DNA of 64,000 bases from Lacrimispora xylanolytica. GTDB lineage: Bacteria; Bacillota; Clostridia; Lachnospirales; Lachnospiraceae. Positions 2,695 to 17,340 of the stretch are shown here, piece after piece. The DNA lies in contig NZ_CP113524.1 in NCBI RefSeq assembly GCF_026723765.1, forward strand, positions 2,837,001 to 2,901,000. The letters run 5' to 3'. The notes beneath the pieces are model-generated. The model saw only the letters and a list, made by a program, of their open reading frames with translations. It was not told where the DNA came from and made no database searches. Made by a program: the position numbers and the translations under genes. How positions within the stretch are numbered: position 1 is the stretch's first letter; every line of letters begins with the position of its first letter.

Positions 2695-3450
2695 TTAAGC
2701 TTTTAAAGCAGCTCCAATGGCTCCAGCATAACGGGAATAATGGGAAACGTTAACAGGGTACCCCGTCTGCTGCTCCAGCACGTTTCTAAGTCCTTCCAAT
2801 TGTGCCAATCCACCGGTTAAAAGAATGGGGGACTCGATTCCAATTCTTCCGGCCAGCGCCATCACTCTTGTGACCACGGATTGAACAATCCCTCCGGCGA
2901 TCTCTTCCCGGCTTTTTCCCGCCGCCAGCAAGGATACAATTTCAGAATCGGCAAATACCGCGCACATACTGCTTAGGGAACAGCATTTCCCCTCTTCTAA
3001 CAGCTTTGGAAAATCAGATAAATCAATCCCCATACGGTGGGCAGACATCTCAAGAAATCTTCCGGTGCCAGCCGCGCATTTATCATTCATCTGAAATGAA
3101 ACTACCTTTCCATTCTCTACGGATATGACCTTGGAATCCTGTCCCCCAATGTCAATAATAGTACGAACCTCTGGCAGGAGGTAATCTGCCCCTGCTGCAT
3201 GACAGGTAATTTCAGTTATTTTCTTATGAGCAAAGTCAATTCCCACTCTTCCATAACCAGTTGCTGCCACACGTATGTCTTCATCCGTTCTATTCTCCTG
3301 CTGCAATAGATCTTTAAGCACCGCTCTTGCAGTTTCTTTTGGATTCCAGCCTGTTGGCTTTACACAAGACGCGGCAATCCTGCCGCCTTTTAAAAGGATT
3401 CCCTTACAGGCGGCAGAACCGCAGTCAATTCCTACTGTTATCTGTTCCAT
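2695..3450 (-). CDS. Acyl-CoA dehydratase activase / ATP-dependent reductase component (HgdC/YjiL family)
   Basis: This 251-residue ASKHA-fold protein contains the HgdC signatures: VGIDCGSAACKG (phosphate 1), IIDIGGQDSK (phosphate 2), NDKCAAGTGRF with Cys125, and SSMCAVFADSE with Cys163. In HgdC the two equivalent cysteines per monomer hold one [4Fe-4S] cluster at the dimer interface. The family uses ATP hydrolysis to push a low-potential electron into its partner. The partner is the gene immediately upstream, only 3 bases away, so the two are translationally coupled. In the double-cubane family this component is the reductase DCCP-R. Function is firm; the final substrate is not known. Confidence 0.93.
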   Translation of the reverse strand: MEQITVGIDCGSAACKGILLKGGRIAASCVKPTGWNPKETARAVLKDLLQQENRTDEDIRVAATGYGRVGIDFAHKKITEITCHAAGADYLLPEVRTIIDIGGQDSKVISVENGKVVSFQMNDKCAAGTGRFLEMSAHRMGIDLSDFPKLLEEGKCCSLSSMCAVFADSEIVSLLAAGKSREEIAGGIVQSVVTRVMALAGRIGIESPILLTGGLAQLEGLRNVLEQQTGYPVNVSHYSRYAGAIGAALKA

Positions 3451-3453
3451 TCT

Positions 3454-4611
3454 TTATAACATCTCCACAAATGCTCCGGCTCTTGTTGACAGCTGTCCGA
3501 TATCAGCCGTACTATAATCAGTTTCTAATTGAAGATAGGGTATGTTTCTTTCTTTTAAAAACGTTTTTACGGTACTTGACTCTACCGCATAAGTATGACA
3601 TGCCTGAAGGGTCATTTCCACCACTCCGTCTACCTTAAACTGCTCACACAGTCTTCCCAGGAGTTCAAACCGGTTGGGGTTGGGAGTCATAATGGAACAG
3701 CCAATCTGTAGGTAGTGATCTGCAATATTGGCAATAGGATCTCCCTCTTCGGAGCACTGACGGTCCATCTGCTTTGCACCGGTACAGTTTTCATATGCGA
3801 CCACAACAGCACCTGCTTCCTCAATGACCTTTACGACTTTTTCCGTTACTCCTCCCATGGGACAGCCTGTAATAAGGATACGGGGAGCATCTTTCGATAC
3901 TGGCCGTTCACCTGCCTCATAGGCAGCTTTTATATTATGGATGGCATTCTGGATTTCTTCTGTTTTCTCCTTCCAGTCAAATTTAAACTGAGAGCCAAAT
4001 AAAATCTGGAGCTGGCGCAGACCAGTAATCGGCGGAGGACATAAGGTGCTAAGCTCATACAGCTCTTTTAACAGCCTACGTTCCTCATTGCGTTTTTGAA
4101 TGGCATCTCTTAACATCTCATCGGTGATGGTCACACCAAAATCTTTTTCTACCCGCTCCTTTAGGCGAAGGACTTCAGACCTCCAAAGAGCTTTTGACTC
4201 TGGAGTGAACTGATTGCGGGGAAGCTGAAGAACATGCAGGTTTTTCTTTTTTGCAAGGAGCTCATACATCTTCACCTTGCCGTCGCAGGTTGTTTCACCA
4301 ACCACTAAATCTGCAAAATACATATAAGGACATTTATCCGTTACTGCAAATCCATAGCTTGATTTAATCAGGGGACATAAATTGCCTGGCAGCTCTTTTT
4401 CCGCATCTGGAATCGTTTCATCACTGGTGGAACAAAGGCTTACCGATACCAGGCCAGCCGCCATAAAAATCTCAAGAGGTGTATAGGTACAAAACTGTCC
4501 AACGACTCCCTTACCGGAATCTTTTATTTTCTTAACTGCCAGAAATCCGTTTTTTCTTGCCTCTGCAAAACTTTCAAATACCTGAGGCAGTTCTCTTTTC
4601 ATCTCAATCAT
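3454..4611 (-). CDS. Double-cubane-cluster-type reductase (2-hydroxyacyl-CoA dehydratase family, HgdB/YjiM-like)
   Basis: This 385-residue protein of the HgdB/FldC family has cysteines at about 41, 60, 79, 94 and 109 (GQFCTYTPLE, SLCSTSDE, GNLCPLIKSS, TDKCPYMYFADL, GETTCDGK). This is the pattern of the stand-alone double-cubane reductases, here with a single large subunit plus activase rather than the usual two dehydratase subunits and CoA-transferase. Family members reduce small molecules at an [8Fe-9S] double cubane using ATP-activated electrons. The ATG at 4611 has AAAGGAG 7 bases upstream; a second in-frame ATG three codons on is too far from it. It follows the ABC transporter ATPase by 51 bases in one operon. 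A true 2-hydroxyacyl-CoA dehydratase is less likely because no second subunit or CoA-transferase is present. Confidence 0.88.
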   Translation of the reverse strand: MIEMKRELPQVFESFAEARKNGFLAVKKIKDSGKGVVGQFCTYTPLEIFMAAGLVSVSLCSTSDETIPDAEKELPGNLCPLIKSSYGFAVTDKCPYMYFADLVVGETTCDGKVKMYELLAKKKNLHVLQLPRNQFTPESKALWRSEVLRLKERVEKDFGVTITDEMLRDAIQKRNEERRLLKELYELSTLCPPPITGLRQLQILFGSQFKFDWKEKTEEIQNAIHNIKAAYEAGERPVSKDAPRILITGCPMGGVTEKVVKVIEEAGAVVVAYENCTGAKQMDRQCSEEGDPIANIADHYLQIGCSIMTPNPNRFELLGRLCEQFKVDGVVEMTLQACHTYAVESSTVKTFLKERNIPYLQLETDYSTADIGQLSTRAGAFVEML

Positions 4612-4662
4612 GGTTTGACTCCTTTCAAATATGACCCTGTGATTTGTATATTAGAACAGTAA

Positions 4663-5400
4663 TTATTTTAAATTGTAGTCCAGAAAGCGTTTCAGTCTCT
4701 CATCTTTAGGATTATCCAGTATTTCTTCTGGTTCCCCATCCCCCACAATGGTTCCATCTGCCATAAATAATATTCTAGTAGCAATCCTGCGCGCAAACAT
4801 AATCTCATGGGTGACAAGTATCATGGTAGATCCGTCTTCTGCCACCTGTTGAATGGTGTTTAAAACCTCCCCCACCAGTTCCGGGTCAAGGGCAGAGGTC
4901 GGTTCGTCAAACAATAGGACCTCCGGACTCACTGCCAGAGCTCTGGCTATGCCAATCCGCTGCTGCTGTCCGCCGGAAAGCTTAGAGGGATAATAGTCCT
5001 TCCGTTCCAGCATTCCAACCTTTTTAAGAAGCTTTAACCCCAATTCCTGGGCTTCCTTCCTGCTTTTTCCGGCCACAATCATCAGCGCTTCCATAATATT
5101 TTCCAACGCTGTTTTATTCTTAAACAAGTTGTAATTTTGGAAAACCATGGCGGAATGCCCCCGCAGCTCCATAATATCTTTATTCCTATGATTCTTTGCA
5201 TCTATGGTTGTAGATCCAATACGGATGCTTCCAGCCGTTGGCTTTGTCAGATAATTCAAACATCTGAGCAATGTGGATTTTCCAGTTCCGGAAGAACCAA
5301 GAATGGCAACAATCTCACCTTTTTTAATGGAGACATTTATATCCTTTAAAATATCTGTTTGTCCGTCAAAGGACTTCCATAAATGACTGATTTCAACCAC
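4663..5400 (-). CDS. Polar amino-acid ABC transporter ATPase (GlnQ/TcyN-like)
   Basis: This 245-residue ABC ATPase has Walker A GSSGTGKS, Q-loop FQNYNLF, signature LSGGQQQR, Walker B VLLFDEPTSALDP and the switch His of LVTHE. The sequence is of the polar amino acid uptake (PAAT) type; the FQNYNLFKNKTALENI stretch resembles cystine transporters, but this is only an impression. It is the third gene of permease - binding protein - ATPase - reductase - activase. It begins 20 bases after the binding-protein stop and powers import through the adjacent permease. Confidence 0.93.
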   Translation of the reverse strand: MVEISHLWKSFDGQTDILKDINVSIKKGEIVAILGSSGTGKSTLLRCLNYLTKPTAGSIRIGSTTIDAKNHRNKDIMELRGHSAMVFQNYNLFKNKTALENIMEALMIVAGKSRKEAQELGLKLLKKVGMLERKDYYPSKLSGGQQQRIGIARALAVSPEVLLFDEPTSALDPELVGEVLNTIQQVAEDGSTMILVTHEIMFARRIATRILFMADGTIVGDGEPEEILDNPKDERLKRFLDYNLK

Positions 5401-5420
5401 TTTTTTACCTCTTCCTCCAC

Positions 5421-6278
5421 TTAGTCATGAATCATTTGAGTCATATCGGAATACATCCATTTTGTAATTATCTTTGAAGTGGTTCCATCTTCCATCATCT
5501 TATCCAAGACCTGATTTACTTCTTCACAAAGCTCTTTTCCCTTCTCATTTTGCTGGAAGTAATATGCTACATTATTTGCAAGAAGCCTGGTCTCCAGAAT
5601 ATGAAACTTCATGTTTTGCGTCTTCTCATATTTATGGACAAGGCTGTCTGTTGTCGCCATGGCATCAATTCTTTTCAAATGAAGATCCTGATATCCCGTA
5701 TCACTTGTTTCATAAACGACTACATTCCAGCCATATGTTTCTGCCATCTTCTCTACGGATACCTGGGAAGCCTGCCCCTGGGTAACTCCGATGGTAACGC
5801 CTTTCAATGCCTCAAAGGTATTGATGTCTGCTTTGTCTTCGTTCACAATCACACACTGGGCATCTCCGTAATAGGGGTGAGAAGTCAAATATTTATCCAT
5901 TCTCGCTTTTGTTGTCGCAAAGCAATTTGCGGCAACGTCAACCCGTCCGGCATCCAGTTCGCCAAACAAGGATGAGAATTCCGCCTGCTTCACTTCAATA
6001 TCCCAACCGGTACGTTTTGCAATCTCACTCCACATCTCTGAATCAATTCCAGTCCATTCCTTTCCATCACTGCTAAGGAGGCTGTAGGGTTCTCCTGTGC
6101 CGCCTGTGGCAATTATGACTTTACGTTTTTCGGCTGAACTTTGCTCTGATCCATTTTCTGATTTTGTGCTCTCTGCCGTTGTTTTCTCTGCATCTGCTGC
6201 TTTGGCTGAAGTATTGCTGCTGCATCCTGCAAGCGTCATTGCTGCCATTAGCAGGAGAATTGGTAATCCTTTTTTCAT
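5421..6278 (-). CDS. Amino-acid ABC transporter substrate-binding lipoprotein
   Basis: This 285-residue family 3 solute-binding protein starts with a lipoprotein signal ending LAGC (lipidated Cys19), then a Ser/Glu/Lys-rich linker and a two-lobed domain (VIIATGGTGEPYSLL, WTGIDSEMWSEIAKRTGW, DVAANCFATTKARMD). The ATTKAR motif replaces the usual Arg-containing ITxxR ligand loop and keeps the Arg that binds an alpha-carboxylate. It delivers ligand to the cognate permease at 6306. Ligand identity is not deducible; co-transcription with a reductase suggests that the ligand, or a product of it, is the substrate of that enzyme. Confidence 0.92.
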   Translation of the reverse strand: MKKGLPILLLMAAMTLAGCSSNTSAKAADAEKTTAESTKSENGSEQSSAEKRKVIIATGGTGEPYSLLSSDGKEWTGIDSEMWSEIAKRTGWDIEVKQAEFSSLFGELDAGRVDVAANCFATTKARMDKYLTSHPYYGDAQCVIVNEDKADINTFEALKGVTIGVTQGQASQVSVEKMAETYGWNVVVYETSDTGYQDLHLKRIDAMATTDSLVHKYEKTQNMKFHILETRLLANNVAYYFQQNEKGKELCEEVNQVLDKMMEDGTTSKIITKWMYSDMTQMIHD

Positions 6279-6305
6279 TTTTTTCCTCCCAATATTTGAT
6301 GGTTG

Positions 6306-6968
6306 TCAGTACATTTCCATACATTTTCTATCCATAATCTTATGAAGATGAGAAAATCCCAAAACTAAAAGCCAGTAAATAATCATAACAGCAAGGTAGA
6401 TTTCAAAGTAGCGAAAGGACTGCGCGCCTTCACTCTTTGCCTGTCCCATAATATCTCTGACACCAAGCATGAATGCCAGTGATGTTGCCTTTAAAAGATT
6501 AATCAGATCGTTAAATAAGGCCGGCAATGACACGCGAAACGCCTGTGGCAATACAATCCGTCTAATGGTCTGAAGCTCTGTCATTCCAAGCATGGCGGCA
6601 GCTTCCTTTTGCCCAGAGTCAACCGACAGAAGGGCTCCACGAATGCTTTCAGACATAAAGGCTCCGGTATTTAAGCTCAATACCAAGGCCACCGCAGTCA
6701 GCGGCTTCATATTAAGCACAATCTCACTGACTCTTGCCAGCCCATAATAAAAAAAATACAACTGAGCCACCAGAGGGGTTCCCCTTAATATGGACAAATA
6801 AAAACGGGTAAGGGGATAAAGAATCTTTATTTTATAATATCCGATAACGGCTACGGTGACACCGATGAGAATGGAGAACATTGCCGCCGTCAAGGTCAGC
6901 GTTAGCGTCACCTGTAATTTAGATGCAATCGTTGGAAACACATTTAGAAAATAAGTGAAGTCAAACAA
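6306..6968 (-). CDS. Amino-acid ABC transporter permease, first gene of the operon (TTG start)
   Basis: This 220-residue HisM/GlnP-type permease has about five membrane helices and the EAA loop GQKEAAAMLGMTELQTIRRIVLP. The start codon is TTG at 6968 with AAAGGAG 8 bases upstream; no ATG fits. A minus-strand promoter is visible 38-66 bases upstream, so this gene opens the five-gene operon that ends with the activase at 2695. It forms a homodimeric channel, or pairs with another permease that is not present here. Confidence 0.92.
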   Translation of the reverse strand: MFDFTYFLNVFPTIASKLQVTLTLTLTAAMFSILIGVTVAVIGYYKIKILYPLTRFYLSILRGTPLVAQLYFFYYGLARVSEIVLNMKPLTAVALVLSLNTGAFMSESIRGALLSVDSGQKEAAAMLGMTELQTIRRIVLPQAFRVSLPALFNDLINLLKATSLAFMLGVRDIMGQAKSEGAQSFRYFEIYLAVMIIYWLLVLGFSHLHKIMDRKCMEMY

Positions 6969-7005: not shown

Positions 7006-7034
7006 ATTATATCATTGGGGTATATTGGAAACAA
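7006..7034 (-). promoter_or_regulatory. Sigma-A-type promoter of the transporter-reductase operon
   Basis: On the minus strand TTGTTT (7034-7029), a 17-base spacer and TATAAT (7011-7006) lie 38 bases upstream of the TTG start. The predicted transcript has a leader of about 30 bases with no room for a riboswitch. Confidence 0.7.
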
Positions 7035-7087
7035 ATTCAAAATATATATCAATCTTTCTCTCATCTATACATTTAACCAATATATAA

Positions 7088-7315: not shown

Positions 7316-7984
7316 ATGACACCAAATAAAGAAGATTATTTAAAAGAACTATATAAACTGGGCGGCTCAGAGCATCTTATCAACAACAAACAGCTATCTC
7401 AGGCTTTAAAAATAGCACCGGCTTCTGTATCTGAGATGCTTGCAAAGCTAAGTCAGGAAGCACTGCTTGTCACGGAGCCATATAAAGGAGCAAAGCTGAC
7501 AAAGGAAGGAATTGAAATTGCTGTTTCACTTTTGCGTGGACACCGCTTGTGGGAGGTATTCCTTATCCGGCATCTGGGATATTCCTGGAGTGAAGCACAT
7601 GAAGATGCTGAATTATTAGAGCACGTATCTCCTGTCCGGCTTACGAACCGGCTGGAGGGTTTCTTGAATTATCCGGAGTACTGCCCCCATGGCAATGCAA
7701 TACCGAACCAGATGGGACAGATAAAGGAAGGGGCCTTAACACTTCTTTCCACACTTACAGCTGGTAAAACAGCCATTATAAAAAAGGTGCAGGAAGAAAA
7801 AGAACTTCTTGATTACCTGCAGACACAGGGAATTGAAATAGGAAGCCAGATAACAGTCCTTTCGGTGGATGATTATGAAGGTCCCTTTACCCTGACACTT
7901 GGAGATAAAAAAATACGGATCAGCCATAAAGCCGCCTGTCAGATTTATGTAGCTGCCAGGAGTGAAACTAAAAACAAAGAATAG
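7316..7984 (+). CDS. mntR: DtxR/MntR-family metal-dependent transcriptional regulator
   Basis: This 222-residue protein has an N-terminal winged HTH (TPNKEDYLKELYKLGG, SQALKIAPASVSEMLAKL), the metal-binding dimerisation helix region (GHRLWEVFLIRHLGY, EDAELLEHVSP) and, unlike the short 140-residue B. subtilis MntR, a C-terminal FeoA/SH3-like domain from about residue 145. It represses metal uptake when metal is bound. GGAGG precedes the ATG by 7 bases. It is the first gene of a five-gene plus-strand operon with the transporter it presumably controls, and a palindromic operator lies in its promoter. Manganese is favoured over iron because of the transporter ligand set, but this is inferred. Confidence 0.9.
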   Translation: MTPNKEDYLKELYKLGGSEHLINNKQLSQALKIAPASVSEMLAKLSQEALLVTEPYKGAKLTKEGIEIAVSLLRGHRLWEVFLIRHLGYSWSEAHEDAELLEHVSPVRLTNRLEGFLNYPEYCPHGNAIPNQMGQIKEGALTLLSTLTAGKTAIIKKVQEEKELLDYLQTQGIEIGSQITVLSVDDYEGPFTLTLGDKKIRISHKAACQIYVAARSETKNKE

Positions 7985-7998
7985 AATGGAGGATATTT

Positions 7999-8931
7999 AT
8001 GATGAAAAAATGTATGGTTTTGTTAAGTTTCTGCCTTATGACAGTAATGATGATAACAGGATGCCAAAAAGCAGAACAGAAGAAAACCAGTGATACCTTA
8101 AACATTGTAGCCACCACCACTATGCTTGCTGACTTATCCAGAGTCATTGGTGGAGAACATGTAAATGTAGATGGGCTTATGGGGCCTGGAATTGATCCCC
8201 ATTTATACCAGGCAAGTGCCGGAGATGTTACATTGATGCAAAATGCTGATGTCGTTGTTTACAATGGCTTGCATCTGGAAGGAAAGATGGGTGAGATTTT
8301 TCAGTCCCTCACAGATCGCGGCAGTACCGTAATCTGTATTGAAGATGGCCTTCCAAAAGATCAATTATTATCCTGGGAGGACGACAGCTCTGTCCATGAT
8401 CCACATATCTGGTTTCAGGTTTCCCTGTGGAAATCAGCAGCAAAAACGGTAGCAGACCGTCTGTCAGAAGCAGATCCCAGTCATGCCCAGGCTTATAAGA
8501 AAAACTTAGAAGCCTATACCTTAGAGCTGGAAAAACTGGATACCTACATAAGGGACAGAATCAATGAAATACCAAAAGATCAGAGAGTTCTCATCACAGC
8601 ACATGATGCGTTTCAATATTTTGGCAAGGCATATGGTCTTGAAGTAAGAGGACTACAGGGAATCAGTACGGATGCGGAGGCAGGAACTGCCGATGTAAGC
8701 ACCCTGGCAGATTTTATTACCAAGCGTAAGATAAAAGCCGTTTTTGTGGAATCTTCTGTTCCGCCTAAAACCATAGAGGCCCTTCAGGCGGCAGTTAAAT
8801 CAAAGGGGTTTGATGTTGCCATAGGCGGAGAGCTTTACTCAGATTCCCTGGGAGGCAAAAATTCCGGCGCTGAAACCTACCTTCTCACAGTAAAAGCCAA
8901 TGTTGACACTATCGTAGGAGCTTTAAAATAG
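7999..8931 (+). CDS. Metal ABC transporter substrate-binding lipoprotein (Mn/Fe type)
   Basis: This 310-residue cluster 9 (TroA/PsaA) solute-binding protein carries a lipoprotein signal ending MITGC. Candidate metal ligands are the His of GIDPHLY, the His of VHDPHIWF, the Glu of VFVESSVPP and the Asp of LYSDSLG. This His-His-Glu-Asp set is typical of Mn/Fe rather than Zn binders, and the His-rich loop of ZnuA proteins is absent. The ATG at 7999 has GGAGG 7 bases upstream and lies 14 bases after mntR. It hands metal to the two permeases encoded downstream. Confidence 0.93.
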   Translation: MMKKCMVLLSFCLMTVMMITGCQKAEQKKTSDTLNIVATTTMLADLSRVIGGEHVNVDGLMGPGIDPHLYQASAGDVTLMQNADVVVYNGLHLEGKMGEIFQSLTDRGSTVICIEDGLPKDQLLSWEDDSSVHDPHIWFQVSLWKSAAKTVADRLSEADPSHAQAYKKNLEAYTLELEKLDTYIRDRINEIPKDQRVLITAHDAFQYFGKAYGLEVRGLQGISTDAEAGTADVSTLADFITKRKIKAVFVESSVPPKTIEALQAAVKSKGFDVAIGGELYSDSLGGKNSGAETYLLTVKANVDTIVGALK

Positions 8932-8955
8932 TTATTTCAGTAAGGAGGAAACCAT

Positions 8956-9714
<759 letters not shown>

Positions 9715-9728
9715 GGAGGTGCATAAAT

Positions 9729-10652
9729 ATGGAACAGGTATTTACCCTTTTTAAAGACTACACGTTTCAGACCGTGGCCCTTGGCTCAGCCATTTTAGGC
9801 TTATTAAGCGGTATATTAGGAAGCTTCGCAGTCCTTCGTAAGCAAAGTCTTTTAGGTGACGGTGTGTCCCATGCCGCTTTGCCTGGTGTCATACTGGCGT
9901 TCATACTAACCGGCTCCAAGCACACGGAAGTGCTTCTTCTTGGAGCCTTGGTCTCAGGCTTAATGGCCACTTTATTTATCATCAGCATTGTAAAACATAC
10001 CAGAATCAAATTTGACAGCGCACTCGCCCTTGTCATGTCTGTATTCTTTGGATTTGGGCTGGTACTCCTCACCTTTGTTCAGAAAATACCAAACTCCAAT
10101 CAGGCCGGATTAAAACGCTTTATCTTCGGGCAGGCTTCTACCCTGCTGCAAAGAGACGTGATCTTTATGAGCCTGTGCGGAGTCATACTTCTTATCCTGG
10201 TACTCCTGTTCTGGAAAGAATTTAAGCTATTTATCTTTGATATGGAATATGCCAGGAGCCTTGGTCTTCCAGCCAATAAAATTAATCTTCTGCTGTCATT
10301 TATGATTGTTATGGCAATTATTATTGGCCTGCAGACCGTAGGTGTCATATTAATGAGCGCCATGCTGATCGCTCCCGCAGTTGCTGCCAGGCAATGGACC
10401 GACCGCTTATGGGTCATGGTCATGCTGTCTGCCGTCTTTGGTGCTGTATCTGGAATCCTTGGAACCATTGCCAGCTCTCTGACTGCAAAACTGCCAACAG
10501 GACCTGCCATTGTTGTGTTTATCAGCTGCATTGTCATATTCAGTATCCTGTTTGCTCCGGGAAGAGGTATCTTACAAAAGATGATTCATAGAAGGAACTT
10601 AAAACAGATGATAAAAAGAAGAGGAGGGAATGAAGATGTCTCCACAATTTGA
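9729..10652 (+). CDS. Metal ABC transporter permease 1
   Basis: This 307-residue ABC-3 family (ZnuB/MntC-like) permease has about eight membrane helices. It shows the family signature LLGDGVSHAALPGV near residue 45 and GVILMSAMLIAPAVAARQW near residue 205. The C-terminus is basic (KMIHRRNLKQMIKRR). It overlaps the next permease gene by 17 bases, suggesting coupled translation and a heterodimeric channel. Confidence 0.94.
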   Translation: MEQVFTLFKDYTFQTVALGSAILGLLSGILGSFAVLRKQSLLGDGVSHAALPGVILAFILTGSKHTEVLLLGALVSGLMATLFIISIVKHTRIKFDSALALVMSVFFGFGLVLLTFVQKIPNSNQAGLKRFIFGQASTLLQRDVIFMSLCGVILLILVLLFWKEFKLFIFDMEYARSLGLPANKINLLLSFMIVMAIIIGLQTVGVILMSAMLIAPAVAARQWTDRLWVMVMLSAVFGAVSGILGTIASSLTAKLPTGPAIVVFISCIVIFSILFAPGRGILQKMIHRRNLKQMIKRRGGNEDVSTI

Positions 10653-11754
10653 AATTCAACTGATTGCGGTCATCGTGGCCGTTGCCTGCTCCCTGCCTGG
10701 AGTATTTCTTGTATTAAGGAAAATGTCAATGATGTCTGATTCCATTACTCATACCATTCTTCTAGGTATTGTCCTTGCCTTTTTCCTGACCCACGACTTA
10801 TCTTCCCCGCTTCTGATTGCAGGAGCTGCCTTTATGGGCCTTGCAACCGTATGGCTGACAGAAACATTAAACCGTACAAAGCTCCTTTCTGAGGATGCTT
10901 CCATTGGGATTGTATTTCCCCTGTTATTTTCCATAGCCATCATACTGATTACCAGATACGCAGGTTCTGTGCATCTGGATACGGATTCCGTTTTGTTAGG
11001 TGAGCTTGCATTTGCTCCATTTAACCGAATGATCTTGTTTGGCTATGACATTGGTGCGAAAGCAATTTACAGCACACTGACCTTGCTCCTTATTAATCTG
11101 ATTTGTATCATAGTATTTTTTAAGGAATTAAAAGTAGTTACCTTTGATCCTATCCTGTCCGCGGTACTGGGAATCTCTCCGACTCTCATTCATTATGGGT
11201 TGATGTTGCTGGTTTCCATGACAACCGTAGGAGCTTTTGAAGCAGTTGGTTCTGTACTGGTGGTTGCCTTTATGATTGGACCGCCTGCTACGGCTTATCT
11301 TTTGACCGATGACTTAAAGCATATGCTGATGCTCAGTACAGGAATCGGTGCTGTCAATGGCATCTCAGGCTTTTATCTGGCTTCCTGGCTGGATGCTTCT
11401 ATCTCAGGCAGTATGGCTGTTATGACTGGATTTGTATTCTTTCTTGTATTTATTACGGCACCAAAAAAGGGCTTTATAAGCTCCATCCGAAGACACAAAA
11501 GGCAAAAACTGGATTTCAGCATGAAAACATTGCTCTTTCATCTATACCAACACGAAGGAAGCGAGGCAGAAAGCCAGGAAGCCGGCCTTCATACTCTTTC
11601 CGCCCATTTTCATTGGGATGAAGCGTTTACAAATAAAATTGTAAAATACTTATTAAAAGAAGGTAATGTGAGTATTGAAAATGAGGTCATAAAACTTACT
11701 ACGAAAGGAAGAGAGTTGAGTGACCAGGAATATAAGGCTATATTTTCAGAATAA
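10636..11754 (+). CDS. Metal ABC transporter permease 2 with C-terminal winged-helix-like extension
   Basis: The first 275 residues are a second ABC-3 permease (MMSDSITHTILLGIVLAFF, GAFEAVGSVLVVAFMIGPPATAY). The last 90 residues are soluble (from LDFSMKTLLFHLYQHEG to the C-terminus) and read like a MarR/DtxR-type winged helix (IVKYLLKEGNVSIENEVIKLTTKGRELS). I start at the ATG at 10636, 7 bases after GGAGGG; the ATG at 10630 lies only one base after it. Related C-terminal extensions occur in some Mn transporter permeases. A role in sensing is a guess. Confidence 0.9.
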   Translation: MSPQFEIQLIAVIVAVACSLPGVFLVLRKMSMMSDSITHTILLGIVLAFFLTHDLSSPLLIAGAAFMGLATVWLTETLNRTKLLSEDASIGIVFPLLFSIAIILITRYAGSVHLDTDSVLLGELAFAPFNRMILFGYDIGAKAIYSTLTLLLINLICIIVFFKELKVVTFDPILSAVLGISPTLIHYGLMLLVSMTTVGAFEAVGSVLVVAFMIGPPATAYLLTDDLKHMLMLSTGIGAVNGISGFYLASWLDASISGSMAVMTGFVFFLVFITAPKKGFISSIRRHKRQKLDFSMKTLLFHLYQHEGSEAESQEAGLHTLSAHFHWDEAFTNKIVKYLLKEGNVSIENEVIKLTTKGRELSDQEYKAIFSE

Positions 11755-15619: not shown

Positions 15620-17011
15620 TTATTTTATTTCGCTGTCATATGGCTTTCCAGCTTCCCAGTCTTTTGTCAGCTTGATGACAACTCCACCAAGTAATAGGAG
15701 AGACAGTATATTAGGTATCACCATCAGACCATTGAAAAGGTCGGCAAGATTCCAGACCAGATCTACTTTCAGCGCACAGCCCACACCTACGAAAATGGAT
15801 ACCATGACCGCATAAAATGGAATGGCCTTTTTACCAAAGAGATACTTCACATTGGCAAGGCCGAAAAAGTACCAGCCCATGATGGTAGCAAATGCAAAGA
15901 AGAACACACAGATAGCAATGACCACATAGCCAAAATGGCCAAAGACCTGAGCAAACGCAGACTGGGTCAGTTCGATTCCCGTTACAAACTCTCCTTTTAC
16001 ATCTCTGGAGCCCAGGACTCCGGAGGTTAAGATAGCAAGAACTGTTAATGGTAAAAGTACAATGGTATCCACAAAGACTCCCATCATGGCAACCAGTCCC
16101 TGTTCACACGGATTTTTTACGCGGGCAAGGGCATGGGCATGAGGTGTGGATCCCATACCGGCTTCATGGGTGAATAAGCCTCTGGCGATTCCAAAACGAA
16201 TGGATTTCTGTACAGATACTCCAAGTACCCCGCCTAAAACTGCCTGCGGATTAAATGCACCGACAAAAATATCATAAAAAGCAGGAATGATGCTGCGAAA
16301 ATTTACTACCATGATAATTAAGGAAGATAGAGTAAAGAACACTGCCATAAAAGGAACTACCTTTTCTGCCACAGCAACGATTCGTTTGACTCCGCCTAAA
16401 AATACAAGCAGGGATAAGATAGCCAGGGCGACTCCCACGTACTCAGAACGAACCCCAAACGCTGCTTCCATGGCTCCTCCTACGGAATTTGCCTGAACCA
16501 TATTTCCCATAAATCCAAGGGCAATGATAATGAGCACAGAAAATGTAGCCGCTACTACTTTACCAGCCGGCCCTTTGATAGCCGCCCGGATATAATAGAC
16601 AGGCCCACCTACCAGTTCTCCGTTTACCACAGTCTTATAACGCTGAGCCAGAGTTGCCTCCGCGTAAATAGTCGCCATACCTAAAATAGCACTCACCCAC
16701 ATCCAGAATACAGAACCAGGCCCTCCGGAAACCATGGCAGTTGCCACACCTGCAAGATTTCCCGTACCGATCTGTGCGGATATTGAGGTAAGCAGTGACT
16801 GAAAAGAAGTCATACCCTCTTTTTCACTGGCATCCTTTCCTCTTAAGGTAATGGAGCCAAAGGTCATACGAAAGCTTTGCTTAAACCTGCGAAACTGAAT
16901 TCCTCTCGTTCTTATGGTAAAGTAAAGACCTACACCGCAAAGAACAACAATCAAAAACACATTCCATAACACTTTGTTAATACTGACAACCAAAGCCGAA
17001 AACCATTCCAT
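15620..17011 (-). CDS. Sodium:alanine/glycine symporter (AGCS family)
   Basis: This 463-residue member of the alanine or glycine:cation symporter family has about eleven helices. Recognisable blocks are SLLTSISAQIGTGNLAGVA near residue 85, GPGSVFWMWVSAILGMATIYAE, and GLFTHEAGMGSTPHAHALA near residue 290. I use the ATG at 17011 (AAGGAGTG 8 bases upstream, family-like MEWFSALVVSINKVLW); an in-frame ATG 40 codons earlier lies inside the leader terminator and is not used. A tandem glycine riboswitch with its own terminator precedes it, so glycine is probably a physiological substrate. Confidence 0.93.
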   Translation of the reverse strand: MEWFSALVVSINKVLWNVFLIVVLCGVGLYFTIRTRGIQFRRFKQSFRMTFGSITLRGKDASEKEGMTSFQSLLTSISAQIGTGNLAGVATAMVSGGPGSVFWMWVSAILGMATIYAEATLAQRYKTVVNGELVGGPVYYIRAAIKGPAGKVVAATFSVLIIIALGFMGNMVQANSVGGAMEAAFGVRSEYVGVALAILSLLVFLGGVKRIVAVAEKVVPFMAVFFTLSSLIIMVVNFRSIIPAFYDIFVGAFNPQAVLGGVLGVSVQKSIRFGIARGLFTHEAGMGSTPHAHALARVKNPCEQGLVAMMGVFVDTIVLLPLTVLAILTSGVLGSRDVKGEFVTGIELTQSAFAQVFGHFGYVVIAICVFFFAFATIMGWYFFGLANVKYLFGKKAIPFYAVMVSIFVGVGCALKVDLVWNLADLFNGLMVIPNILSLLLLGGVVIKLTKDWEAGKPYDSEIK

Positions 17012-17087
17012 ACTCGTAACACTCCTTATTATTTTTGCATGGATATTCTGAAGCTGTAAATCAGAATGTCCTGAATGCATCAACAAA

Positions 17088-17119
17088 TAAAAAAGCCAAA
17101 CCAAAAATATGGTTTGACT
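17088..17119 (-). terminator. Riboswitch expression-platform terminator
   Basis: On the minus strand AGTCAAACCA pairs with TGGTTTGGCT (one G-U) and runs into TTTTTT. It sits between the glycine aptamers and the symporter ATG, which makes it the likely switch for premature termination. Confidence 0.8.
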
Positions 17120-17159
17120 CCGGATATGCACAAAAAGACCCCAAAAATAAATTTATAAA

Positions 17160-17340
17160 GGTTCTCTGTCCTTTTGCCTGAGAGATTAAAGCGGATAAAT
17201 CCACCCCTTACACCTTCGGCACCCAATCAAGGGATTCTCCAGAGTTACATCCATTTATAGTCCACACCTGGTTTTCCAGGCACCTGAGAGTGTTACTCCT
17301 TCGGTAGGCTATAGCCATTTTCCTACAAACTTCACTTGTT
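17160..17340 (-). ncRNA. Tandem glycine riboswitch
   Basis: Read on the minus strand, two gcvT-type aptamers follow each other. The first has CCTACCGAAGGAGTAA and CACTCTCAGG; after the linker GGACTATAAATGGATG comes CTCTGGAGAATCCC, and the second has GTGCCGAAGGTGTAA and ATCTCTCAGGCAAAAGGACA. These conserved CCGAAGG and CTCAGG..AAAAGGAC blocks identify the class clearly. It controls the downstream sodium:alanine/glycine symporter through the terminator at 17088-17119. For a transporter an OFF response to glycine is the logical direction and has been described for a streptococcal symporter, but direction cannot be read from this sequence alone. Confidence 0.95.

Follow-up and report, generated by a model that had tools for sequence, protein, structure and literature searches.

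The stretch of DNA considered here, hereafter the window, spans 64,000 nucleotides of Lacrimispora xylanolytica (contig NZ_CP113524.1, positions 2,837,001 to 2,901,000). Near its start, the minus strand carries a five-gene operon that joins an ATP-binding cassette (ABC) importer to a double-cubane-cluster anaerobic reductase (DCCP) and its HgdC-like, ATP-dependent activase. Permease (PERM), substrate-binding lipoprotein (SBP), ATPase, DCCP and activase follow one another with gaps of 27, 20, 51 and 3 bases between the open reading frames of the window. On from the activase come selD, a selenium metabolism-associated LysR-type regulator (LysR_Se), a lyase-like gene, YedF and a Se/S carrier (Table 1). 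The operon is a genus-specific importer variant of a known association between DCCP and selenium genes.

Table 1. Features of the operon and of the adjoining selenium genes, in window coordinates except where a locus handle is given; bit scores are followed by the model cut-off.
Feature	Position	Strand	Family match and remarks
Permease gene (PERM)	6306-6968	minus	PF00528 BPD_transp_1 and TIGR01726; first operon gene, TTG start
Substrate-binding lipoprotein gene (SBP)	5421-6278	minus	PF00497 SBP_bac_3
ABC ATPase gene	4663-5400	minus	PF00005 ABC_tran; GTG start
Double-cubane-cluster anaerobic reductase gene (DCCP)	3454-4611	minus	HGD-D and NF040772
HgdC-like ATP-dependent activase gene	2695-3450	minus	BcrAD_BadFG and TIGR00241
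Operon promoter, TTGTTT-17-TATAAT	7006-7034 (7034-7006)	minus	within a conserved block; conserved sequence also upstream
Intrinsic terminator downstream of activase	2624-2659	minus	hairpin and T-run
selD, selenophosphate synthetase	1310-2341	minus	TIGR00476, 378 bits (cut-off 125); no in-frame TGA
selD promoter-like site, TTGTAA-17-TATGAT	2505-2477	minus	own site upstream of selD
selD palindrome, TGTAGATTGT-NN-ACAATCTACA	2471-2450	minus	just past the selD -10 box
Selenium metabolism-associated LysR-type regulator (LysR_Se)	354-1298	minus	NF040786, 358.8 bits (cut-off 250)
Cysteine-desulfurase/selenocysteine-lyase-like gene, start only	1-288, continues outside the window (L002 11185-12288)	minus	TIGR01977
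YedF	past window edge		TIGR03527, 197 bits (cut-off 110)
Se/S carrier	past window edge, L164 4248-4523		PF11823, 74 bits (cut-off 25)
SelB	past window edge		TIGR00475, 363 bits (cut-off 242)
trxB, trxA, grdA, grdC, grdD, selA, grdE	beyond selB, past window edge		names from reading translations, no model run

The operon is preserved well beyond the window. Its promoter matches the consensus at 3 of 6 bases of the -35 box and was hence not listed by the promoter scan. Among the aligned loci, the window counted, the -10 box is nonetheless kept in 8/8 and the -35 box in 7/8 (L018 reads TTGTGT), and hairpin and T-run of the terminator on the activase side are kept in 5/5. The full five-gene order was read in ten named relatives (L012-L020 and L036), with the genes split in L020. 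We speak of the genus as Lacrimispora, the named relatives with a 91-100% identical DCCP being mostly Lacrimispora. In 11 of 25 genomes of this genus (the window's counted) SBP precedes DCCP at equal spacing, and in two more the unit is reordered. Because it recurs in this way, the five-gene order is not a chance arrangement. One relative (L020; G507:C1:4290776-4293841) has importer-linked DCCP, activase, selD and lyase-like genes that read as broken by stops or frame changes, and carries another, intact DCCP copy.

What kind of reductase is encoded here? The protein scores 524.9 bits against the NF040772 double_cubane model (cut-off 350). Among proteins of known structure it matches the double-cubane protein 6eno/7yyl best (257 bits), a protein that presumably stems, reductase included, from Carboxydothermus hydrogenoformans. 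A phmmer alignment with 6eno places eight cysteine columns in common, while three further 6eno cysteines in the aligned stretch are not shared. The activase reaches 261 bits against TIGR00241 (cut-off 125), has HgdC (1hux) as its best solved relative and retains, relative to it, both motif cysteines (DKCAAGTG, SSMCAVFA). Since the genome, a single contig of 4.5 Mb, yielded only one HGD-D protein, a two-subunit 2-hydroxyacyl-CoA dehydratase (HgdABC/HadBC) is ruled out; the HadC model gives 103 against a required 700 bits. An initial annotation, made from the letters of the window, had described five genes on one strand with these gaps, one promoter and one terminator, and a stand-alone single large subunit with its activase. 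Window coordinates and aligned loci bear out the former, and the single HGD-D protein and the two model scores the latter.

The Sporomusa DCCPs (L021, L022, L024) are 84% identical to that of the window, and further Lacrimispora copies 78-79%. As Sporomusa presumably belongs to another class than the window's organism, this closer similarity suggests horizontal transfer. Some relatives also carry extra DCCP-activase pairs (L030-L033, L061, L196-L198), in whose flanks neither the importer nor the searched selenium genes were found; two of them (L030, L031) adjoin a polypeptide-deformylase-like gene and an MCP-domain gene. According to one account, characterised DCCPs reduce acetylene, hydrazine and azide, activities whose physiological relevance is called unclear there, and there is a partial relationship between the family and a 4-thiouridine-monophosphate desulfidase (PMC11971306).

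The connection to selenium emerges when the distribution of DCCP is compared with that of selD. We used gene calls over family cut-offs in 200 Lachnospiraceae genomes, one per genus, and in 293 Clostridia genomes, the latter including two of the window's species and sharing a few genomes with the former; lists were matched by reading tables, and the Fisher tests ignore relatedness. Among the Lachnospiraceae, DCCP occurs in 29 genomes and selD in 65, with selD present in 28/29 DCCP genomes and in 37/171 others (Fisher 4e-15). The Clostridia sample, with DCCP in 35 and selD in 71 genomes, gives 35/35 versus 36/258 (Fisher 9e-26). Genomes without selD over cut-off accordingly contain DCCP in 1/135 and 0/222 cases. 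Within the genus itself DCCP is found in 15 and selD in 22 of 25 genomes, and all 15 DCCP genomes have both (p=0.05 only). The tie is not a property of the superfamily, because in the Clostridia sample selD occurs in just 9 of the 25 genomes that contain only sub-cut-off HGD-D proteins (E<=1e-20).

Is this a matter of selenocysteine decoding? SelB exceeds its cut-off in 30 of the 200 Lachnospiraceae, and the 29 DCCP genomes divide into 23 with SelB, five with selD and no SelB, and one with neither. DCCP is thus present in 23/30 selB genomes versus 5/35 selD genomes without selB. Since five DCCP genomes have selD and no selB over cut-off, the reductase goes with selD broadly and not only with selenocysteine decoding, although it is most often found together with the latter. 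The preference for selB genomes could also mean that the link is indirect, the DCCP serving some other anaerobic reduction and meeting selD through a common anaerobic life style (glycine reductase, Wood-Ljungdahl, selenoprotein dehydrogenases), and the cluster of the window does include glycine reductase genes, named from reading. We nevertheless consider this distinctly unlikely. In several lineages DCCP clusters physically with selD, YedF, lyase and carrier, the 20 related HGD-D control loci, likewise from Lachnospiraceae anaerobes, have no selenium genes nearby, and at seven (L014-L018, L020, L036) of the ten Lacrimispora loci read, no glycine reductase (grd) gene was detected in the downstream DNA examined.

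The physical clustering was counted around DCCP loci. From 122 loci (L163 lies just under the cut-off) 95 remained at 90% identity. In 59 of these the flanks reach 5 kb or more on either side; the main ratio omits the remaining 36, which are shorter. As controls served 20 loci picked from the best sub-cut-off HGD-D matches (HgdB-type, Lachnospiraceae), of which 16 have flanks of that length and 8 lie in selD genomes. At least one of eight selenium genes lies within 7 kb at 24/59 DCCP loci versus 0/20 controls (p=2e-4), or versus 0/8 when only controls in selD genomes are taken (p=0.04). Restricted to Lachnospiraceae loci with flanks of that length, the count is 13/43 (p=0.006). The lyase-like gene alone is found at 19/59 loci and 0/20 controls (p=0.002); YedF is near 8/59 (p=0.19) and the Se/S carrier near 4/59 (p=0.57), again with 0/20 controls each. 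In several Lachnospiraceae (L136, L139, L143) two ATPases, a CbiQ-type transporter protein and a pseudouridine synthase precede the lyase-like gene and DCCP. The lyase-like protein of the window stays under the cut-offs of both TIGR01977 (363 vs 377 bits) and the selenocysteine lyase SclA (NF040779, 288 vs 525), so that we do not assign it to SclA.

These neighbours allow for a different placement of the reductase. It might act one step later, reducing Se(0) or perselenide held on the lyase-like protein, YedF or the carrier to selenide for SelD, with the importer bringing in selenocysteine, selenocystine or a relative. Besides the enrichment of the lyase-like gene, it is in line with this idea that the best-named relatives of the window's permease and ATPase are cystine transporters, as are those of the SBPs found with DCCP in Sporomusa and L159. 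The binding pocket of the window's SBP, which is missing the amine-binding Asp (see below), argues in the opposite direction. One could think that the Se(0)/selenide potential lies so low, at about -0.7 V, that only an ATP-driven reductase would reach it. We dropped this argument, as a review puts hydrogen selenide close to H2 in reducing power (PMC5187540), so that thermodynamics does not call for ATP-boosted electrons. Such a later step, the main alternative, is in our view unlikely.

A second alternative replaces selenium by sulfur: the module would handle methylated or other organic sulfur, as nitrogenase-like methylthio-alkane reductases do, and the selenium genes would ride along. We take the methylthio-alkane reductase MarHDK to be nitrogenase-like and not homologous to DCCP. 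Mlp-type methyltransferases near 6/59 DCCP loci (corrinoid proteins are near 4/59) and importer relatives of cystine, sulfonate and taurine type would agree with a sulfur substrate. A sulfonate/taurine-type importer lies on the same strand within about 7.5 kb at 5/162 DCCP loci (L021, L024, L025, L027 weakly, and L119) versus 0/20 controls, too few loci for a claim of enrichment. To our knowledge sulfur use is universal, and still DCCP hardly ever occurs in genomes where no selD reaches the cut-off, which makes this alternative very unlikely.

How firmly does the importer belong to the reductase? An SBP orthologue (at least 71% identity; next best 32%) occurs in 13 of the 25 genus genomes, and in 13/13 it is no more than 3 kb away from DCCP, two gene orders being represented. 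Eleven of these genomes have SBP upstream of DCCP and selD downstream, and in most unit-bearing genomes of the genus the five-gene unit stands directly upstream of selD, LysR_Se and the selenium-handling genes. The link survives rearrangement, since two genomes (G492, G493) keep the unit in the order DCCP-ACT-PERM-SBP-ATP. The pairing of importer and reductase is thus a genus-level module, kept in about half of the genus. One could still regard the importer as a passenger that was fused into the operon in one genus and serves an unrelated ligand such as a Stickland substrate. The rarity of the pairing beyond the genus and the glycine reductase genes that follow in the window's species (names from reading) would be expected of a passenger. 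That all 13 SBP orthologues stay by DCCP through a change of gene order would not, nor would the finding that SBP matches (E<=1e-30) occur in four of the 200 Lachnospiraceae genomes and all four carry DCCP (p=0.003 without the window's own). We give the passenger little chance, and import of a Stickland substrate ranks low because no grd genes were detected in the DNA examined downstream of the unit at the seven of ten loci mentioned above.

In the three non-window genomes with an SBP match, the gene is not beside the DCCP found; it sits on a different contig or about 93 kb away. The nearest match outside the genus (G156, 50% identity) has its own permease and ATPase in a same-strand run with yqeB (TIGR03309, 356 vs 220 bits), fdhD (184.5 vs 140.9) and a formate-dehydrogenase-like gene (613 bits, below the cut-off of 666), interrupted by an IS607-type element and a dehydratase-like gene. 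Around the DCCP loci themselves, a polar-amino-acid-type SBP and permease lie within 7 kb at 4/95 dereplicated loci, one of them the genus itself. The other three are Sporomusa (L021/L022) and the Lachnospiraceae locus L159, on the same strand, and Fusobacterium (L067), on the opposite strand. At 31 further Clostridia DCCP loci, no such importer was found within the flanks.

The three importer parts are those of a polar-amino-acid ABC importer (PAAT), with an SBP_bac_3 protein, a HEQRo-type permease (TIGR01726, 70.5 bits; cut-off 42.2) and an ABC ATPase. A cystine importer (TcyJLN) can be rejected, as all three parts stay below the respective cut-offs: the permease with 168 of 300 bits against its best equivalog, the cystine permease PRK15100, the SBP with 93 of 312 against the cystine (TcyJLN-type) model and no equivalog cut-off reached elsewhere, and the ATPase with 302 of 406 against its best equivalog, cystine TcyN. 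We also reject the selenocysteine-linked Sao ABC system, which is named in the accessible part of PMC13188914: no SaoX, SaoB or SaoP model is among the permease and SBP matches at E<=0.001, and the SaoA model is absent among the best 25 of 190 ATPase matches.

The pocket of the SBP was read from an alignment with six of the eight other SBP_bac_3 proteins of the genome (L191 and L192 are not in it), its columns being named by what we take to be the residue numbering of GlnBP (Arg75, Asp157, Thr70, Gly68). Arg126, at the carboxylate-binding position, is invariant. In the column of the amine-binding Asp, on which the 4zv1 and 9d5w alignments agree, 12/12 genus loci have Thr (Thr210), compared with Asp in 6/6 other SBPs of the genome; elsewhere Sporomusa has Ala, L159 Ser and Fusobacterium L067 Asp. 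A cysteine, Cys119, occupies the Gly68 column in 12/12 genus SBPs and in no other aligned SBP, and the 50% identical relative (L238, G156) keeps this Cys and likewise has no Asp in the amine column. The change from Thr to Ala at the Thr70 equivalent was dropped as a ligand clue, since Ala also occurs in 2/6 other SBPs of the genome. Asp211, one position on from Thr210, could in part stand in for the lost Asp in the genus SBPs; L238 has no Asp there. By alignment, then, this is not the canonical pocket for L-amino acids: as it keeps the Arg, is missing the amine-binding Asp and presents a conserved Cys, it is unlikely to hold an ordinary amino acid. Its residues suggest as ligand a carboxylate that has no free alpha-amine and perhaps carries a soft, thiol-liking atom.

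The initial annotation had proposed that the importer and the reductase form a complete import-and-reduce module for an amino acid-like or sulfur/selenium-containing small molecule. Within the genus, the pairing of importer and reductase holds up. As a general module it has to be rejected: beyond the genus there are the three further loci of 95 (L021, L159, L067) and none of 31 in Clostridia. Usual separation of reductase and transporter, which the annotation itself had named as evidence against its idea, is what we observe outside the genus. The selenium part of the substrate guess fits the neighbouring selenium genes, which the annotation had left unnamed, and the amino acid-like part needs amending, in that the carboxylate-binding Arg is retained and the alpha-amine position is not.

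Building on operon layout, family membership and selenium association, we infer a route that links ligand, electron donor, reaction and flow to SelD. The importer would bring in a small carboxylate-bearing compound that has no free alpha-amine and contains selenium, or sulfur with selenium. The activase would spend ATP to drive electrons, donated by ferredoxin or flavodoxin, onto the double-cubane cluster, which would reductively liberate selenide from the compound by C-Se or Se-Se/Se-S cleavage, and SelD would convert the freed selenide to selenophosphate. In some other lineages this kind of reductase adjoins other importers, methyl-selenium-type methyltransferases or a selenocysteine-lyase-like gene, which might feed it instead. 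On balance we lean towards the view that the DCCP module serves selenium supply; cleavage of organic C-Se bonds, the chemistry that we prefer, takes up about half of that confidence. A bolder version, argued by analogy and rather unlikely as a whole, would make DCCP the selenium counterpart of the C-S-cleaving nitrogenase-like reductases. As a dedicated, ATP-driven enzyme it would strip carboxylated or betaine-like organic selenium that has no free alpha-amine of its selenide, and in this genus it would be welded to a purpose-built importer whose SBP grips the selenium by its pocket Cys.

Several observations weigh against selenium supply as the role of the module. One DCCP genome of the 29 (G087, L149) has no selD over cut-off, be it through an assembly gap, recent loss or another role. 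At this locus a lyase-like gene and the activase still adjoin the DCCP. Conversely, 37 of the 65 selD genomes in Lachnospiraceae do without DCCP, and phylogenetic profiles show partnership, not chemistry. Only 8/20 control loci are in selD genomes, and no neighbour besides the lyase-like gene is significant singly (selD, p=0.32; YedF and carrier as above). A second sample, in which 35 of 47 over-cut-off Clostridia matches were taken without dereplication against the first set, gives a weaker signal, with a selenium gene within 7 kb in 7 of the 31 loci with 5 kb on both sides (p=0.03 vs 0/20). At the locus itself a terminator stands between operon and selD, and in the two reordered genomes, G492 and G493, selD is not nearby. 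Apart from Sporomusa and L159, whose importers belong to different subfamilies, the importer is linked to DCCP in this genus only.

How selD is expressed bears on its relation to the operon. With its own promoter-like site and a palindrome with a conserved core, selD may be transcribed separately from the five genes. The palindrome is perfect over at least 44 bases (2439-2482); its core is kept in aligned relatives (nearly so in L019) and its outer arms only in L013, and it may act as an operator or 5' hairpin. Conserved blocks ahead of selD (2535-2553) and of the permease gene (about 7040-7080, minus strand) both contain the motif TATAGAT, possibly as a common LysR site. Further into the window, a glycine riboswitch (RF00504, 52 bits) at 17156-17252 on the minus strand lies directly upstream of a sodium/alanine-type symporter gene (15620-17131, name from reading), and both fit a glycine-reducing organism. 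On the plus strand, a divergent MntR/DtxR-type regulator followed by genes read as a metal-type ABC importer (7316-11754) is apparently unrelated to the operon.

The near-perfect genomic tie to selD, together with an adjacent importer whose ligand can be measured directly, turns the search for the natural substrate of double-cubane reductases into a binding assay. If the proposed route is true, it would supply a missing entry step in bacterial selenium nutrition, from organic or inert selenium to selenide for SelD. With the DCCP of Carboxydothermus hydrogenoformans (6eno, 7yyl) the window's reductase shares the family by curated cut-off, eight cysteine columns and an adjoining activase; it differs in its association with selD and with an importer of the amino-acid type. 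The importer resembles those of the TcyJLN and GlnHPQ type in the fold families of all three parts, but it misses all equivalog cut-offs, has the amine-binding Asp replaced and carries a Cys at the pocket.

That DCCP goes with selenium has, provisionally, been in print. Kountz and Balskus (PMC10418091) count DCCP among genes 'provisionally linked' to selenium, and their drawings of type I mlp gene clusters include sel genes, SelR and glycine reductase genes. The Mlp methyltransferases and corrinoid proteins near some of the 59 DCCP loci agree with this account. The L012 locus, a near-identical named relative, differs in having the importer in place of the Mlp methyltransferase and corrinoid protein. 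It is not a type I mlp cluster, as neither of the two was found within 7 kb of its DCCP, a result that extends neither to RACo nor to the rest of the genome. In Lin et al. 2015 (PMC5322559), 2-hydroxyglutaryl-CoA dehydratase genes and activase genes appear as STRING partners of LysR_Se and YedF, and the selenium gene set given there (LysR_Se, YedF, DUF3343, YedE) has neighbours in common with the window; the accessible sections of that article do not develop the reductase as a candidate and name no such ABC importer. In the literature searched, we found no description of the pairing of importer and DCCP. What is added here is the size of the association, its controls and the importer link. A functional parallel that we draw is the methylthio-alkane reductase MarHDK (available in part, PMC12552129), which similarly uses an ATP-driven metallocluster to cleave a carbon-chalcogen bond, and by analogy with which the function of DCCP is proposed.

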